Part shown: positions 1 through 7,381 of the stretch, piece by piece | Position numbering within the stretch: position 1 is the stretch's first letter | Layout of the letters: each line of letters opens with the position of its first letter | NCBI RefSeq assembly: GCF_001730525.1 | Contig: NZ_MDFN01000012.1 | Span: forward strand, 62,001 to 126,000 | Origin: Arcticibacter eurypsychrophilus | GTDB taxonomy: Bacteria; Bacteroidota; Bacteroidia; Sphingobacteriales; Sphingobacteriaceae | Direction: 5' to 3' | Length of the DNA: 64,000 nucleotides | Position numbers and translations under genes: made by a program | Notes under the pieces: model-generated | The model's database searches: none | The model's input: only the letters and a program-made list of their open reading frames with translations | What the model was told of the DNA's origin: nothing

Positions 1-660
1 CCGAGTATTGGCATAATCCTGAATCCGTTGGTGGTAATCAATACTAGGGAATTTGTTTTTACTATAGATAAATCCGATACTTTCGAGAGTAGGGATGGGG
101 AAATTAGACCGGTGAAAGGTGTTAAAATATTTTTCTGTAGGGTATGATTTAAGATGAATTGCAGGCTTTAGTTGATCTAACCATTTATTTTTGTAAGGAG
201 TGAAAACGGTATAGGGCTCCTTGCTGTCCTTAAATATTTCATCTTTTTCAAAAATGACCTGGTCTTTAAATTCTTTAAATTCAATTGAATTGTCCTTTAA
301 TAGTTTTTGGACAGCTGTATCGCGATCTTTCGCATAAGGCTCATAATCAGAGTTTGTATAAACAGTATCAAGTTTATAATCCCTTATAAGATTTAAAAAG
401 GCATCTATGGGTTTCTTGTGAAAAATAAGAAGTGACGAACCTTGTTTTTTTAATTTATTATTTAGAGTAGTTAATGAATTATGGATGAAAGTTAATCTGG
501 AATCGTCCTGATCAACTAATTTAGTCAGAATCTCAGGGTCGAATATAAAAATAGGTAAAGTGGGAACACCTGATTTTAAAGCATGGTATAATCCTGCATT
601 ATCCTCCAGGCGTAAGTCTCTCCTAAACCAGAATATATTAATTGGATCAGTCTTTGGCAT
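1..660 (-). CDS. phrB: Deoxyribodipyrimidine photolyase, class I (partial, N-terminal 220 residues)
   Basis: This is the N-terminal part of a DNA photolyase, the flavoenzyme that uses blue light to split cyclobutane pyrimidine dimers. The frame is open from an ATG at 660 to the window edge, so the C-terminal FAD-binding half lies outside. The start reads MPKTDPINIFWFRRDLRLED, the classic photolyase N-terminus (FWFRRDLRLxDN), and PIFIFDPEIL and VYTNSDYEPYAKDRD follow as expected for the antenna-binding alpha/beta domain. The gene begins inside the last codons of the upstream SDR gene (14-nt overlap), so the two are probably co-transcribed and translationally coupled. Identity as a class I photolyase is secure at family level; CPD versus (6-4) specificity cannot be judged without the C-terminal half. 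Confidence 0.9.
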   Translation of the reverse strand, partial: MPKTDPINIFWFRRDLRLEDNAGLYHALKSGVPTLPIFIFDPEILTKLVDQDDSRLTFIHNSLTTLNNKLKKQGSSLLIFHKKPIDAFLNLIRDYKLDTVYTNSDYEPYAKDRDTAVQKLLKDNSIEFKEFKDQVIFEKDEIFKDSKEPYTVFTPYKNKWLDQLKPAIHLKSYPTEKYFNTFHRSNFPIPTLESIGFIYSKNKFPSIDYHQRIQDYANTR

Positions 661-1564
661 ATAAGTCTTTTAAGGCTTCCTTGATGCGTTCAAACTTAAA
701 TTTGAAGCCCGCTTCTCTGATTTTATCTGAACGCGTTCGGGTACTACTCAATACTACGGCTTTCATTTCACCTAAAAAAATCCGAAGAGCTATTGCCGGA
801 AGATTTGGAAGCCAAAGAGTCCTATTAAGAACAGTGGAAATAGATTTAGTTAATTCCTTATTCGTAACAGGATTAGGAGCGGATAGATTATAAGTACCTG
901 ACATTGAACTGTTTTGTAATGCGAATAGATAAGCATTAACCACATCGTCCATGTGGATCCAGGGAATCCACTGTTTTCCTGATCCTAAAACAGTTCCTAA
1001 ATTATATTTCACGGGACCTGCTATTTGAGGGAGCGCGCCACCCTGCAAGCTTAGTACAACACCTGTTCTAAATTTAACTATCCGCATATTTAAATCGAGA
1101 CTCATGTCTGCTGCTTTTTCCCATAAGACGCAAGCCTCTGATAGAAATCCTTCTCCTGGATCACTGTTTTCATCAAGTAATTCATCATTGCGATCGCCGT
1201 AGTAACCAACAGCCGAAGCGGATATAAGTGATTTTACCTGAAACTGCGGATTATCTTTCAGTGCTTTAAAAATAAGGCCTAGAGAATCAACTCTACTGCT
1301 GATAATTGCTTGTTTGCGTTCTTCTCGCCAGGGCTTTTCGGCAATCCCTTCTCCGGCAAGATGTATAATCGTATCAACATTTGCCAGGCAGTTTTTATCG
1401 ATATATCCATTTTTTACATCCCACTTAAATCCTTTAAAAGATGGATTATATTGAGGTTCTTTTCTGCTTAATACATGGATTTGATATCCATGGCTAAGTA
1501 GTAGTTTAACCAGTGGCTTCCCGATCAATCCACTCGCACCTGTAATTAAAACTGTTGCAGACAT
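647..1564 (-). CDS. TIGR01777-family SDR epimerase (YfcH-like)
   Basis: A 305-residue NAD(P)-binding protein of the extended short-chain dehydrogenase superfamily. Seen: the Rossmann motif TGASGLIGKPL at about residues 8-18, IIHLAGEGI near 66, SASAVGYYGDR near 115 (carrying the family's Ser and Tyr), and a C-terminal segment WLPNLPAIALRIFLGEM of the DUF1731 type. This matches the TIGR01777 family, often mislabelled as cell-division inhibitor SulA; the physiological substrate is unknown. The gene is divergent from the [2Fe-2S] protein gene with under 40 nt between starts, and its 3' end overlaps the photolyase start. Photolyase and TIGR01777 genes are frequently neighbours in bacteria, which hints at a shared light or oxidative stress role, but that is inference. 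Confidence 0.85.
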   Translation of the reverse strand: MSATVLITGASGLIGKPLVKLLLSHGYQIHVLSRKEPQYNPSFKGFKWDVKNGYIDKNCLANVDTIIHLAGEGIAEKPWREERKQAIISSRVDSLGLIFKALKDNPQFQVKSLISASAVGYYGDRNDELLDENSDPGEGFLSEACVLWEKAADMSLDLNMRIVKFRTGVVLSLQGGALPQIAGPVKYNLGTVLGSGKQWIPWIHMDDVVNAYLFALQNSSMSGTYNLSAPNPVTNKELTKSISTVLNRTLWLPNLPAIALRIFLGEMKAVVLSSTRTRSDKIREAGFKFKFERIKEALKDLYAKD

Positions 1565-1602
1565 ATTTAAATCTTAACTGAAGAGTTGTACATTTGTTTG
1601 AT

Positions 1603-1935
1603 ATGTTATACGCAAAACACATTTTTATATGTACCAATCAACGTCCTGAGGGTTCCAGGGTATGTTGTGGGGAAAGTCATGGTTTGGCTTTAGTCGCCGC
1701 TTTCAAGAAGGCAATTAAAGATAAAGGACTTCAAACTGAAATAAGGGCACAAAGAACAGGTTGCCTGGAAGCCTGTGAAATGGGCCCTTCATTGGTAGTT
1801 TATCCAGAAGGTATTTTTTATGCTCATGTACAGTTAGAGGATGTTGATGAAATCGTTACTGAACATTTAGAGCATAATCGAATCGTTTCCCGGCTTGTAA
1901 TGGACTTCGATAAACTGCGCGAATTAAAATCGTGA
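1603..1935 (+). CDS. Thioredoxin-like [2Fe-2S] ferredoxin domain protein
   Basis: A small single-domain (about 110 residues) protein of the thioredoxin-like [2Fe-2S] ferredoxin fold, also found in NuoE and as free-standing proteins. From the ATG used here the cluster-type cysteines are at about 10, 21-22, 54 and 58, in the contexts IFICTNQRPEGSRVCCG and TGCLEACEMGPSLVVYPEG. The frame extends 9 nt further upstream to a TTG; the ATG at 1603 is preferred because it begins MLYAKHIFICTN, right at the first beta strand. It probably carries electrons in the cytoplasm, partner unknown. It converges with the CBS gene, the stops being only 1 nt apart. Confidence 0.8.
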   Translation: MLYAKHIFICTNQRPEGSRVCCGESHGLALVAAFKKAIKDKGLQTEIRAQRTGCLEACEMGPSLVVYPEGIFYAHVQLEDVDEIVTEHLEHNRIVSRLVMDFDKLRELKS

Positions 1936-1936
1936 T

Positions 1937-2365
1937 TTAGCTATTAATATATCCTTCCAGTTGTTTAATTGTGTCTTTTTGCGAATCAATGATTGCTTTT
2001 ACCAAATCGCCTATTGAAATCATTGCGACTACTTTTCCATCGTTAATAACAGGAAGATGGCGGATGTGCTTGTCAGTCATTAGATTCATGCAATATTCCA
2101 GCCCATCATTAAGAGAAATAGTTAGCGGATTAGCCGTCATTACTTCATGTACCTGCGTATCTTTTGAAGATTTACCCTGCAGTACAATTTTTCGTGCATA
2201 ATCTCTCTCAGTAAAAATTCCTTTGAGTTGATCTTGCTCGATTATTAGTAGTGCGCTAATGTTCTTTTCCATCATTACTGTTAGCGCATCAAATACTGAT
2301 ATCGATGAATTTATTGAGAACAGATGAGATGGTTTTTGTTTTAAAATGTTGTTTACGGTCTTCAT
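1937..2365 (-). CDS. CBS-domain pair protein
   Basis: A 142-residue cytoplasmic protein made almost entirely of two CBS motifs (about residues 8-65 and 72-130). Typical landmarks are ALLIIEQDQLKGIFTERDYARK in the first (GIFTERD) and RHLPVINDGKVVAMISIGDLVK in the second (HLPVxxxGkvvGmiSigDlv). Stand-alone CBS pairs bind adenosyl nucleotides such as AMP, ATP or NAD and act as energy sensors; the ligand here is not predictable. It has no same-strand neighbour close enough to form an operon, and the repeat-rich gap lies upstream of its start. Confidence 0.85.
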   Translation of the reverse strand: MKTVNNILKQKPSHLFSINSSISVFDALTVMMEKNISALLIIEQDQLKGIFTERDYARKIVLQGKSSKDTQVHEVMTANPLTISLNDGLEYCMNLMTDKHIRHLPVINDGKVVAMISIGDLVKAIIDSQKDTIKQLEGYINS

Positions 2366-2611: not shown

Positions 2612-2998
2612 CGGATGAAATGTTTCAACCTCGTTAGTTTCAACAAATTTACGACGGATGAAAATCATGTAGAAAGTGCGATTGAAATGTTTCAAACTCG
2701 TTGGTTTCGATAATATATAGCGGATGAAAATCATGTAGAAAGTGCGATTGAAATGTTTCAAACTCGTTAGTTTCGATATTATATAGCGGATGAAAATCAT
2801 GTAGAAATTGCGGTTGAAATGTTTCAAACTCGTTAGTTTCGATAATATATAGCAGATGAGAATCATGTACAAATTTCGGTTAAGATGTTTCAACCTCGTT
2901 AGTTTCAACAAATTTACGACGGAAGAAAATCATGTAGAAATTGCGGTTGAAATGTTTCAAACTTGTTAGTTTCGACAATATATAGCGGACAAAATTCA
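2612..2998. repeat. 66-bp tandem repeat array, about six copies
   Basis: Head-to-tail imperfect repeats. Unit starts are seen at 2655, 2721, 2787, 2853 and 2920, with a shortened unit at 2612 and a trailing partial unit at 2986. The unit begins CGGATGAAAATCATGTAGAA and ends in TTTCGATAATATATAG. Each unit contains a short palindrome, TTGAAATGTTTCAA. Copies 1 and 5 share a variant ending (CAACCTCGTTAGTTTCAACA then AATTTACGA) exactly 265 bp apart, so there is a higher-order period of about four units. The 22-codon period keeps a frame open on the minus strand, but no start context, homology or composition supports a protein. There are no unique spacers, so this is not CRISPR. Confidence 0.9.
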
Positions 2999-3236: not shown

Positions 3237-4502
3237 ATGAGTGAGAAGACTATCCTAATTTGGTTTCGCAATGATCTGAGAATACACGACAACGAAGTGC
3301 TGATAGAGGCAGTGAATCGAGCTGGTAGAATATTGCCTGTTTATTGCTTTGACCCCAGATATTTTACCGAAACAAGTTATGGTACATTAAGAAGCGGCTA
3401 TTACAGGACAAAGTTTTTATTAGAAAGCGTTGAAAGTCTCAGAGAAGCATTTAGAGAGCGTGGGGGTAATCTCATCATTAGAATTGGGAAACCCGAAGAT
3501 ATACTTCCCGAGTTGTGTAAACAATATGGTATATCAGAGGTGTATCATCATCGGGAAGTAGCAAACGAAGAAACTGAAATTTCAGCACATGTTGAAGATG
3601 CGCTTTGGAAAATGAAAATTAACCTGAAGCATTTTATCGGACATACCATGTTTCATAAACAAGACCTTCCATTTCCAATTAAAAATATACCGAATGATTT
3701 CTTGATTTTTAAGAAAAAAATAGAGCGGGAAAGTATTGTTCGTCGAGGTTTTGAATCTCCCGATAAATTGGAGGTGCCCTTAGATGTAGAATGGGGGCCA
3801 TTGCCACTTATGGAAAATTTAGGGATAAGTTCTGCTACTGACATTGAAAGTGACTTGCTCTATACAGGTGGCGAAAAAAAAGCACTTGAAATTATGAATC
3901 AACTTTTAGAAATGCCATTTTCGGATTTTGGGGTATTAAATCCGAATAAGTGCAATTCAGCAGTGTTGTCCCCCTGGCTTTCACTGGGATGTTTGTCTCC
4001 GCGCTTAGTCTACTGGAAAGTGAAAGAAAAACTACCACCCAAATCAGATCTAAGTATAAAAATTATCATAGAATTACAATGGAGAGACTTTAATAGATTT
4101 ATGTTAAAAAAACATGGTCCTGTATTGGAGATGAGCTCAAAAAAACTTAAACCTGCTGAAAAATTGAAATTTATAAACTGGAAAGAAGGCCATACAGGTG
4201 AGCTTCTTGTGGATGCCTGCATGCAACAACTTAATGCTACGGGTTATATCAATAGTATTTGTAAATCATTCGTCTCCGCTTACTTAATAAAAAAGTTAAA
4301 AGTACAATGGCCTGCCGGGTCAGCTTACTTTGAAGAAAAGGCAATTGATTTTTCTCCCGCAATTGATTGGGGTAACTGGGCAATTGCCTGTGGTGTAATA
4401 GCTTACGGAAAGTATGCAAATCCTGCTAAGGAAGAAGTTATTGAAGATCAACATATAAAAAATAGATTAATTTATTTGCAGGAGCATAATAAATCAGCCT
4501 GA
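3237..4502 (+). CDS. DASH-like cryptochrome/photolyase family protein with altered FAD pocket
   Basis: A 421-residue flavoprotein-family protein. The N-terminal half is typical of DASH cryptochromes: ILIWFRNDLRIHDNEVL, LPVYCFDPRYF, IRIGKPEDILPEL, and DLPFPIKNIPNDF near 143-155. The C-terminal half keeps the fold landmarks LSPWLSLGCLSPR (244-256), ELQWRDFNRF (279-288) and DWGNW (377-381). However, the usual SNRGRQ segment reads NSICKS (339-344), the second Asp of the usual DYD reads Ser373, and the Asn normally facing flavin N5 reads Asp377. Family members bind FAD and act as single-strand photolyases or blue-light receptors; here the changed residues make FAD affinity and photochemistry uncertain. 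The frame is intact with normal codon use. The start is supported by MSEKTILIWFRND alignment. Confidence 0.85.
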   Translation: MSEKTILIWFRNDLRIHDNEVLIEAVNRAGRILPVYCFDPRYFTETSYGTLRSGYYRTKFLLESVESLREAFRERGGNLIIRIGKPEDILPELCKQYGISEVYHHREVANEETEISAHVEDALWKMKINLKHFIGHTMFHKQDLPFPIKNIPNDFLIFKKKIERESIVRRGFESPDKLEVPLDVEWGPLPLMENLGISSATDIESDLLYTGGEKKALEIMNQLLEMPFSDFGVLNPNKCNSAVLSPWLSLGCLSPRLVYWKVKEKLPPKSDLSIKIIIELQWRDFNRFMLKKHGPVLEMSSKKLKPAEKLKFINWKEGHTGELLVDACMQQLNATGYINSICKSFVSAYLIKKLKVQWPAGSAYFEEKAIDFSPAIDWGNWAIACGVIAYGKYANPAKEEVIEDQHIKNRLIYLQEHNKSA

Positions 4503-4588: not shown

Positions 4589-7381
4589 ATGGACAATCTG
4601 TCATACCTTAGTAATGCACACTCCTCTTACATAGATTCTCTGTACCAGTTATATAAAGAAAATCCGGGATCAATCGATTTTGGCTGGCAGAAGTTTTTTG
4701 AAGGATTTGATTTTGGAAAAGGATCAGAAACGATTAGTGCAGGTGAAACACCACAAAATTTGCTTAAAGAGATCAATGTGATGAACATGATCTATGGATA
4801 CCGGCAACGCGGACACCTATTTACCAATACAAACCCTGTAAGGGAGCGACGTAAATATTTTCCTGGTAAAGAGCTTGAAACTTTTGGATTAAGCGACGAC
4901 GATCTCGATACTGTCTTCAATGCTGGTATTGAAGTTGGCTTAGGTCCGGTTAAGTTGCGCGAAATTCAAGCTTTATTGGAGGAAACTTATTGCCGTTCTA
5001 TTGGCGCCGAATTCGTTTATATACGTAATCCGGAAAAACTGAATTGGTTTAAGACAAGGATGGAGTCCGAAAGAAATACCCCAAACTTAACATTAGACAC
5101 CAAAAAGCAAATATTAAAAAAGCTCAACGAAGCAGTTGTATTCGAAAGTTTTCTGGGTACAAAATTCCTGGGACAGAAACGCTTCTCTCTTGAAGGTGCC
5201 GAAAGTTTAATTCCGGTTCTTGACTTTGTCATTGAAAGAGGTGCCGATCTTGGCATTGAAGAGTTCGTGATCGGTATGGCACATCGTGGCCGCCTCAACG
5301 TCCTGGCTAATATCATGCACAAAACGTATAAGGATATCTTTGCAGAGTTTGAAGGTAAAGGATATGATGAAACTAAACCTTACGGAGGTGATGTGAAATA
5401 CCATCTTGGATTCTCTACTGATGTTCAAACCAAGGCAGGAAAGAAGGTTCATTTAAGTCTTTGTCCAAATCCTTCTCATCTTGAAACGGTAGACCCTATC
5501 GTTGAAGGAATAAGCAGGTCTAAAATAGATTTCAAATATGATGGAGACAACTCCCGACTAGCACCTATATTAATCCATGGTGACGCATCAATAGCAGGGC
5601 AGGGAATTGTATATGAAGTGTTGCAAATGGCTAAATTGGATGGTTATAAAACAGGCGGTACCATCCATCTTGTCATCAATAACCAGGTAGGCTTTACTAC
5701 CAATTACAAAGACGCTCGCTCGTCTTCCTATTGCACAGACCTTGCAAAGATTACACTATCTCCTGTTTTTCATGTCAATGGAGATGATGTAGAAGCACTA
5801 ATCTATGCTATTAATATCTCATTAGAATATCGTCAAAAATATAAAAATGATGTATTCATCGATATCTTATGTTATCGCCGATACGGACACAATGAAGCAG
5901 ATGAGCCTAAATTTACCCAGCCCTTACTTTACAAAGCGATAGAGCAGCATCCAAATCCTAGAGAAATTTATAATAAGAAACTTCTGGAAAGTGGAACAGT
6001 TGATGCAAGTCTGGCTAAAGAAATGGAAAAGGATTTCCGAAGCTTACTTCAGGAGCGTTTGAATGAATCCAAAGAAAGTAACGTGTATCAACCTAACGTT
6101 ATGTTTTCAGGCGCATGGACAGGAGTGAGAATGTCTAAACCCGAAGACTTTGATGTCAGTCCGGATACTGCTGTAACAAAGGAAGAGTTATTATCCATCG
6201 CCCAAACCATTACCACATTACCATCCGATAAAAAGATCTTCCGTAAAATCGAAAAGCTTTTTGAAGACCGAAGAAAAATGGTTCAGAATAACTCACTGGA
6301 TTGGGCTATGGGCGAACTTTTAGCTTATGGTACTTTATTAAGTGAAGGATTCAGGGTTAGGCTAAGCGGACAGGATGTCGAAAGAGGTACTTTTTCTCAT
6401 CGCCATGCGGTAGTTAAAATTGAAGATTCCGAAGAGGAGTTTATCCCATTACAACAATTAAAAAATCAAGATCTGCAGGCCAAGTTTGATATCTATAACT
6501 CACATTTATCCGAATACGGTGTTTTAGGCTTTGAATATGGTTACGCATTAGCTAATCCACATTCATTAACGATTTGGGAAGCACAGTTCGGCGATTTTGT
6601 AAATGGAGCACAGATCATTCTTGACCAATACCTGGTTAGTGCAGAAACAAAATGGCAACGTTCCAATGGAGTTGTGCTATTACTTCCACATGGATATGAA
6701 GGACAGGGACCCGAACATTCTTCAGCAAGAATGGAGCGTTTTCTGGAGTCATGCGCAGATTATAACATCCAGGTTGCTAATTGCACCACACCAGCCAACT
6801 ATTTTCATTTACTTCGTCGTCAGCTAAAACGTGATTTCCGTAAACCACTTGTTGTTTTTACGCCTAAAAGTTTACTTCGGAATTCATTATGCGTAAGCAC
6901 AATTGAGGAATTTACAGAAGCGCGATTTCAGGAAGTAATTGATGACAGCATCGTTAAACCCAATGCAGTAAAGCGGGTTGTATTTTGCACAGGTAAGGTA
7001 TATTATGATTTACGAGAAAAACAAAAAGTAGACTCGCGTTATGATGTAGCTATTGTTAGATTAGAGCAGATTTATCCTTTGCCAATAAAGCAGCTGGAGG
7101 GCATACAGAACAAGTATAATAAAGCAAAAGAATTCTATTGGGTACAGGAAGAGCCTGAAAACATGGGAGCATGGCCTTTCTTATGCAGAAAGTTTAGAAG
7201 TATTGATGTTAATCTTCAGGTAATATCCCGAAAAGAAAGCAGCAGTACAGCTACCGGATATGCTAAACAACATATCTCTCAACAGCTTTATATTATTGGT
7301 AAAGCGTTTGAAGATTTAGCAGGTAAAGAGATAAAGAAGTCAGTAATTAAAACTACCAAAAAAGTAGTTGACATAGATTAA
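4589..7381 (+). CDS. sucA: 2-oxoglutarate dehydrogenase E1 component
   Basis: Thiamine-diphosphate-dependent E1 subunit of the 2-oxoglutarate dehydrogenase complex, which decarboxylates 2-oxoglutarate and transfers the succinyl group to lipoyl-E2 in the TCA cycle. About 930 residues, full family length. Seen: the N-terminal E2-binding helix (LSNAHSSYIDSLYQLYKENP), GMAHRGRLNVLAN, CPNPSHLETVDP, the ThDP region HGDASIAGQGIVYE, CYRRYGHNEADEP, and the transketolase-like C-terminal half with WEAQFGDFVNGAQ and LPHGYEGQGPEHSSAR. The ATG at 4589 is preferred; an upstream in-frame TTG at 4580 would add only three residues. sucB starts 24 nt after the stop, so E1 and E2 form an operon. Confidence 0.97.
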   Translation: MDNLSYLSNAHSSYIDSLYQLYKENPGSIDFGWQKFFEGFDFGKGSETISAGETPQNLLKEINVMNMIYGYRQRGHLFTNTNPVRERRKYFPGKELETFGLSDDDLDTVFNAGIEVGLGPVKLREIQALLEETYCRSIGAEFVYIRNPEKLNWFKTRMESERNTPNLTLDTKKQILKKLNEAVVFESFLGTKFLGQKRFSLEGAESLIPVLDFVIERGADLGIEEFVIGMAHRGRLNVLANIMHKTYKDIFAEFEGKGYDETKPYGGDVKYHLGFSTDVQTKAGKKVHLSLCPNPSHLETVDPIVEGISRSKIDFKYDGDNSRLAPILIHGDASIAGQGIVYEVLQMAKLDGYKTGGTIHLVINNQVGFTTNYKDARSSSYCTDLAKITLSPVFHVNGDDVEALIYAINISLEYRQKYKNDVFIDILCYRRYGHNEADEPKFTQPLLYKAIEQHPNPREIYNKKLLESGTVDASLAKEMEKDFRSLLQERLNESKESNVYQPNVMFSGAWTGVRMSKPEDFDVSPDTAVTKEELLSIAQTITTLPSDKKIFRKIEKLFEDRRKMVQNNSLDWAMGELLAYGTLLSEGFRVRLSGQDVERGTFSHRHAVVKIEDSEEEFIPLQQLKNQDLQAKFDIYNSHLSEYGVLGFEYGYALANPHSLTIWEAQFGDFVNGAQIILDQYLVSAETKWQRSNGVVLLLPHGYEGQGPEHSSARMERFLESCADYNIQVANCTTPANYFHLLRRQLKRDFRKPLVVFTPKSLLRNSLCVSTIEEFTEARFQEVIDDSIVKPNAVKRVVFCTGKVYYDLREKQKVDSRYDVAIVRLEQIYPLPIKQLEGIQNKYNKAKEFYWVQEEPENMGAWPFLCRKFRSIDVNLQVISRKESSSTATGYAKQHISQQLYIIGKAFEDLAGKEIKKSVIKTTKKVVDID

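Follow-up and report, generated by a model that had tools for sequence, protein, structure and literature searches.

Altered flavin pocket and lesion site in a DASH-derived cryptochrome-like protein of Arcticibacter eurypsychrophilus, a possible case of departure from repair within the Sphingobacteriaceae

In DASH cryptochromes, a loop and the C-terminal tail contact DNA, and the YK.TRNG motif of the canonical loop presumably has a role at the lesion. The two lesion positions are occupied by Gln and Tyr, which is a feature of this group (PMC7560933, Table 1), and a complete Trp chain includes either a canonical or an alternative third Trp (PMC7560933). For folate binding, E149 of AtCRY3 is described as essential (PMC4831468). 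The FAD contacts given for the plant cryptochrome AtCRY2 include R359, D387, D389 and D393, and the same source connects Asp at the site facing flavin N5 with the oxidized state of cryptochrome flavin (PMC7782693). An anionic radical is given for the N378D mutant of E. coli photolyase (PMC10940379).

The window, the whole 64,000-nucleotide stretch of A. eurypsychrophilus DNA that was analysed, encodes a protein of this group (Table 1). Its frame is intact, as a sequence-only reading of the window had stated. The domain search identified PF00875 and PF03441 and no fused effector domain; a partner was sought among the adjacent genes only. The best NCBIfam family is DASH (TIGR02765), with 292.1 bits under a cut-off of 317.05, while the plant cryptochrome model TIGR02766 gives 76.5 bits under a cut-off of 603.85. 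The AF2 model, which is cofactor-free and was computed with 69 family sequences as input, has a pLDDT of 89.9 and a pTM of 0.91. This model is closest to DASH structures, namely 6kii by Foldseek and, by VIA, AtCRY3 2j4d (Z 41.3) and 6kii (Z 41.1), in a range of 39.7–41.3 for the DASH cryptochromes AtCRY3 (2j4d/2vtb), Synechocystis 1np7 and Arthrospira 6kii. According to the trees and the predicted structure, the protein descends from within the DASH clade and has the DASH fold. No other fold appeared among the best 50 Foldseek and the best 50 VIA matches, all of them photolyase/cryptochrome chains. Low AF2 confidence at the loop 229–239 was discarded as a sign of disorder, because the loop of a canonical control (L080, 236–245) is equally low.

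Table 1. Coordinates of the cryptochrome-like gene, its diagnostic sites and its surroundings (window positions unless another locus is named; E. coli residues from the alignment to PhrB, in literature numbering with Met = 0)
Feature	Position	Strand	Evidence or remark
Class I photolyase, running past the left window edge	1..660	-	438 aa in L004 9344-10660; MHNRVRM and NIGGW; ~2.6 kb upstream of the cryptochrome-like gene
SDR (TIGR01777), 2Fe-2S ferredoxin-like (below model cut-offs) and CBS-domain genes	647-2365		Between class I photolyase and cryptochrome-like gene
66-bp tandem repeat, 5.7 copies	2612..2989	.	Between CBS gene and cryptochrome-like gene
DASH-derived cryptochrome-like protein, 421 aa	3237..4502	+	Intact ORF; domain search, alignment, fold match
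Antenna (PF00875) domain, residues 1-170	3237..3746	+	39/170 columns invariant in 148 family sequences
HHREV, residues 104-108	3546..3560	+	H104, H105, R106 fixed in the 148 family sequences and variable among the 27 comparison DASHs
E112 = AtCRY3 E149 (folate-antenna Glu) by alignment	3570..3572	+	Glu in 149/149; alignment to 2j4d_A, chain index assumed to equal entry numbering
Shortened loop before LSPW, residues 226-240, without the canonical DASH YK.TRNG motif	3912..3956	+
NSICKS, residues 339-344, in the DASH SNRGRQ columns	4251..4268	+	N341->S340, R342->I341, R344->K343, DASH Gln->S344
W358 = E. coli W359, kept	4308..4310	+	Alignment
D371 = E. coli D372, salt-bridge Asp, kept	4347..4349	+	Asp in 147/148 family sequences
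S373 = E. coli D374	4353..4355	+	Asp in 0/148 family sequences vs 26/27 comparison DASHs
DWGNW, residues 377-381	4365..4379	+	N5-facing N378->D377; proximal W382->W381 kept
Own C-terminal tail, residues 386-421, replacing the DASH YDP..Y..W tail	4392..4499	+
Presumed sucA, 2-oxoglutarate dehydrogenase E1	4589..7381	+	86 nt downstream of cryptochrome-like gene; start taken as ATG 4589
Canonical DASH, contig 4 of the same genome	L005 8493-9785		35% identical to the cryptochrome-like protein

The sequence-only reading treated the gene as a paralogue. That status is ruled out by the genome matches, the loci and the tree, which identify it as the resident DASH orthologue of the Sphingobacteriaceae. 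Of 301 Sphingobacteriaceae genomes, 283 contain a match at E <= 1e-60; ten have two matches, and in at least one of the 283 (G069, with L152) the match is a DASH of another type. When a different DASH served as query in a search of the whole class, 69 of 247 genomes matched at E <= 1e-70, six of them Sphingobacteriaceae, a comparison that is rough as both queries and thresholds differ. The gene that follows on the same strand, which we take to be sucA, lies downstream of the orthologue, on its strand, in 75 of the 80 loci of named relatives, at a median distance of 350 nt over those 75 and at 82–108 nt in all nine Arcticibacter/Desertivirga-type loci. Of 58 family loci with flanks of ~1.5 kb, 52 show sucA or sucB. 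Neither was found at any of 32 loci of comparison DASHs (29 from the class-wide search plus L034, L035 and L005, with two places included twice).

Three photolyase-family genes are found in the A. eurypsychrophilus genome (4.69 Mb, 93 contigs): the class I photolyase, the gene described here, and the canonical DASH on contig 4, which differs from it in having SNRGRQ, D374, N378 and Gln/Tyr intact. Because this second DASH groups with those of other families in the tree, it represents a separate, added lineage, possibly acquired horizontally. Together with the class I photolyase, it could cover repair. The link of the cryptochrome-like gene to the upstream class I photolyase, SDR, 2Fe-2S and CBS genes was given no weight as to function; the arrangement is conserved mainly in the Arcticibacter/Desertivirga clade: SDR is present in 35, 2Fe-2S in 13 and CBS in 11 of the 80 loci, some of which end early. 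The class I photolyase query matches all 80 loci, mostly by cross-matches on the DASH gene, and real neighbours (>=50% identity) number 22. A diverged array related to the 66-bp repeat stands upstream of the A. svalbardensis orthologue.

The flavin pocket departs from that of DASH proteins at several of the sites noted earlier. NSICKS does lie in the SNRGRQ columns, which the alignment does not misplace, so that Lys stands for R344; Asp faces N5 within DWGNW, and the proximal and second Trp remain, all as the sequence-only reading had it. The salt-bridge Asp, in turn, had been misassigned. Ser373 was taken for its loss, but E. coli D372 aligns with D371, still an Asp, and Ser373 occupies the D374 site. 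In AtCRY2, D387 precedes D393 by six residues and therefore corresponds to E. coli D372 and to D371 here; Ser373 then corresponds to AtCRY2 D389. K343, S373 and D377 are shared by the nearest named relative, A. svalbardensis (L007/L071, 93% identical), and the N5 column is variable across the family.

Further changes had been missed, namely S340 and I341, both lesion positions, the short loop, the lost YDP..Y..W tail and the lack of a distal Trp. The lesion columns were set at E. coli M345/W384, whose spacing of 39 equals that of M358/W397 in PMC7560933, and both are altered (Gln to S344, Tyr to I383). No Trp aligns with Synechocystis W320 or W375, and a W320/W306-type Trp is absent from all 40 family rows displayed; the Trp chain is thus incomplete, with a proximal and a middle Trp and neither third position filled. 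E279, W282 and R283, equivalent to E. coli E274, W277 and R278, are kept. The protein shares with DASH cryptochromes their ancestry, fold, folate Glu, proximal and middle Trp and salt-bridge Asp. It differs from them by the absence of the lesion Gln/Tyr, SNRGRQ, the TRNG loop motif, the tail and the distal Trp, by Asp at N5, and by an antenna domain more conserved than the FAD domain. Plant cryptochromes (AtCRY1/2) resemble it in the N5-facing Asp and in having no DASH lesion Gln, but AtCRY2 has Arg and Asp (R359, D389; PMC7782693) where it has Lys and Ser at the R344 and D374 sites, and it is without their long C-terminal extension. Its N5 Asp arose independently of plant cryptochromes, within DASH.

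The two halves of the protein were compared in 148 family sequences and 27 comparison DASHs. Of the latter, 25 belong to other families of the class, and the remaining two come from genomes of the family but cluster with these 25; L152, from G069, is counted there for this reason. Two class I photolyases (L204, L207) and two loci without an ORF (L200, L210) were kept out of the comparison set; L212 repeats the canonical DASH of the A. eurypsychrophilus genome and L197 repeats L034, and L019 was left out as its open frame ends early with one internal stop. N341, R342, R344, Q345, D372, N378, W382 and Y384 are invariant in the comparison DASHs. In the family, these columns vary widely, except D372 and W382 (147/148 each); R344 is Arg in 137 and Q345 is kept in 108 sequences, and the N5 column reads N125 T9 D5 I4 V2 A1 G1 E1.

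The distribution of conservation is inverted as well. In the comparison set, pairs share 41% identity in the N-domain and 62% in the FAD core, which is the higher in 351/351 pairs; in the family the values are 67% and 54%, with FAD higher in 460/10,878. This inversion accompanies the loss of the lesion site and is not a property of the whole family, because the 19 canonical-motif members behave like ordinary DASH (FAD core more conserved in 170/171 pairs) and the 129 reduced members do not (112/8,256). The 80 named loci were found via two N-terminal peptide patterns, with a possible bias toward N-domain conservation; the 46 loci not found in this way have the same inversion, FAD being higher in 27/1,035 pairs. 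Eighteen N-domain columns, including E101, H104, H105, R106, W124, N129, H132, H136 and K141, are fixed in all 148 sequences and <60% uniform outside, so the description of this half as ordinary DASH does not hold. The FAD core has 9 invariant columns of 151, or 12 once L008, the A. pallidicorallinus orthologue, is set aside, and these 12 include D372 and the proximal Trp. Family subsamples of 27 sequences have on average 56 (N) and 20 (FAD) invariant columns vs 12 and 45 in the comparison set.

This pattern bears on whether the protein is still a photolyase, with a substrate site remodelled for another lesion or RNA, or with a lesion pocket supplied by a partner. Such a function would be compatible with the preserved fold, E279, W282 and R283 and with the frequency of R344 and Q345 in the family. 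We regard it as quite improbable: in this protein N341, R342, the tail, the loop motif and the Gln and Tyr of DASH are lost, and the reduced forms vary more in their FAD domain, contrary to the 27 comparison DASHs. A second possibility, the chief rival to the reading preferred below, is a flavin-independent scaffold or folate-binding protein, with a functional antenna domain and a FAD domain shrinking to a structural remnant. The conserved antenna domain could indeed serve a light-independent role, and its 39/170 invariant columns, with the folate Glu fixed, against 9/151 in the FAD core, fit this idea, as does the A. pallidicorallinus orthologue, which has lost all four key flavin residues and kept its ORF and a better conserved N-domain. 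D372 and W382, however, show no exception in the other 147 sequences, which is hard to explain without flavin, and the dN/dS of the FAD core is 0.04–0.07 between the A. eurypsychrophilus and A. svalbardensis genes, depending on bounds and method. The scaffold is considered rather unlikely, albeit the most serious of the alternatives.

Over the whole gene, the same two orthologues differ by 115 nt and 30 aa, with a dN/dS of 0.078. For 31 pairs outside the canonical list, the median dN/dS is 0.057 (0.053 in the FAD core), a ratio without a canonical comparator, as no canonical-form pair was found within the dS range of the pairwise analysis. These ratios indicate that the gene and its relatives are under strong purifying selection and are not decaying, which agrees with the earlier argument from the intact frame. 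Erosion of a photolyase domain whose job is covered by the canonical DASH on contig 4 is therefore largely refuted and very improbable, even with the second DASH in this genome and the pocket residues lost in L008: a match is kept in 283/301 genomes, and the second DASH occurs in one only of the nine Arcticibacter/Desertivirga-type genomes, that of A. eurypsychrophilus, so the change in the other eight cannot be due to redundancy.

The A. pallidicorallinus orthologue (L054 6001-7230) has an intact frame and antenna domain, with Glu, Gly, Ala and Arg at R344, D372, N378 and W382. Compared with all eight members of the clade, its N-domain identity exceeds its FAD-core identity. Its flavin pocket is apparently gone, and flavin may be dispensable in this branch. 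Two observations on close relatives weigh in part against the sequence-only reading: pocket residues are missing in this orthologue, and L009, L010 and L014 have the usual Asn and Arg.

The order of the changes was estimated from a tree of 139 of the 175 rows, obtained by a quick method with 36 family rows left out, in which 38 of 136 inner branches are open. The fewest changes required are 1 for D374, 5 for loop length, 6 for R344, 7 for the Gln/Tyr pair, 8 for R342 and 13 for N378. The single D374 change separates 26 comparison DASHs from a group made up of the family and L152, the latter with Asn at this site. From the tree we infer that D374 was lost first, then the lesion positions, and then, in places, the N5 residue. 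In four more distant family members of genus code g17 (L162, L164, L165, L166), Ile is found at the N5-facing position, and L162 also has Gln at R344.

The parallel with plant cryptochromes drawn by the sequence-only reading holds for Asp at the N5 site; it concerns one column only, which is variable across the family. Asp is found there in five sequences, those of A. eurypsychrophilus, A. svalbardensis and two Desertivirga and L093, a canonical-motif metagenome sequence, and four of the five have Lys at R344. A branch-specific, adaptive tuning to a plant-cryptochrome-like photocycle could be seen in this shared Asp and Lys, in the link between Asp and oxidized flavin (PMC7782693) and in the anionic radical named for N378D (PMC10940379). 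It would add to the preferred reading rather than oppose it. Asp accounts for only 3 of the 13 changes at this column, the other outcomes being T, I, V, A, G and E, and looks like one outcome of relaxation. As the column varies throughout the family, the Asp described here may be relaxation and not tuning; alone, it is weak evidence for a plant-like photocycle, and we consider the tuning unlikely.

The preferred explanation, to which we assign a probability of about one half, is that the resident DASH orthologue was turned from lesion repair into a repair-deficient, antenna-bearing flavoprotein. The comparison shows Asp at D374 to be missing from the whole family lineage, through one change on the tree. 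Several lineages, with that of A. eurypsychrophilus as an extreme example, subsequently lost SNRGRQ, Gln/Tyr, the long loop and usually the tail. In the resulting reduced forms, the FAD domain varies widely around a fixed D372 and proximal Trp (L008 aside), the antenna domain is nearly fixed, and purifying selection is strong. Folate and flavin would still be bound, K343 could still pair with D371 in a salt bridge, and a light or redox change at the flavin would still be coupled out, not into a DNA lesion but by altering how the conserved antenna-domain face contacts a partner. By analogy with plant cryptochromes (PMC7782693) and E. coli N378D (PMC10940379), D377 facing N5 predicts a flavin more readily held oxidized, and from the lack of a distal Trp one would expect photoreduction to be slow or altered. 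On this reading the probable role is that of a light or redox sensor, and the step to light sensing is the weakest. The earlier suggestion that it is not a repair enzyme is supported indirectly, by lost lesion positions and strong purifying selection with D372, the proximal Trp and the folate Glu kept; it is plausible for a broader reason than the residues then cited.

A wider and more tentative possibility is that the Sphingobacteriaceae repeatedly made their resident DASH photolyase a signalling or scaffold protein, with the flavin/DNA domain freed and the folate-antenna domain frozen as a working surface. The A. pallidicorallinus branch would then be folate-only or cofactor-free, and the plant N5 Asp would have re-evolved in Arcticibacter and Desertivirga. 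No title or abstract start describing such a family-wide change was seen among the matches listed for cryptochromes or cry-DASH in Bacteroidetes and Sphingobacteriaceae, or among 20 of the 26 matches on loss of repair in cry-DASH, subscription papers and preprints being outside the scope of that search. The way in which photolyases turn into cryptochromes remains a question, one mostly approached through ancient lineages. In the present case, a DASH lineage seems to have left repair on several occasions inside a single bacterial family, of which canonical-motif, intermediate and reduced members are sequenced and many are cultured, so that the proposed order of losses is open to direct biochemistry.
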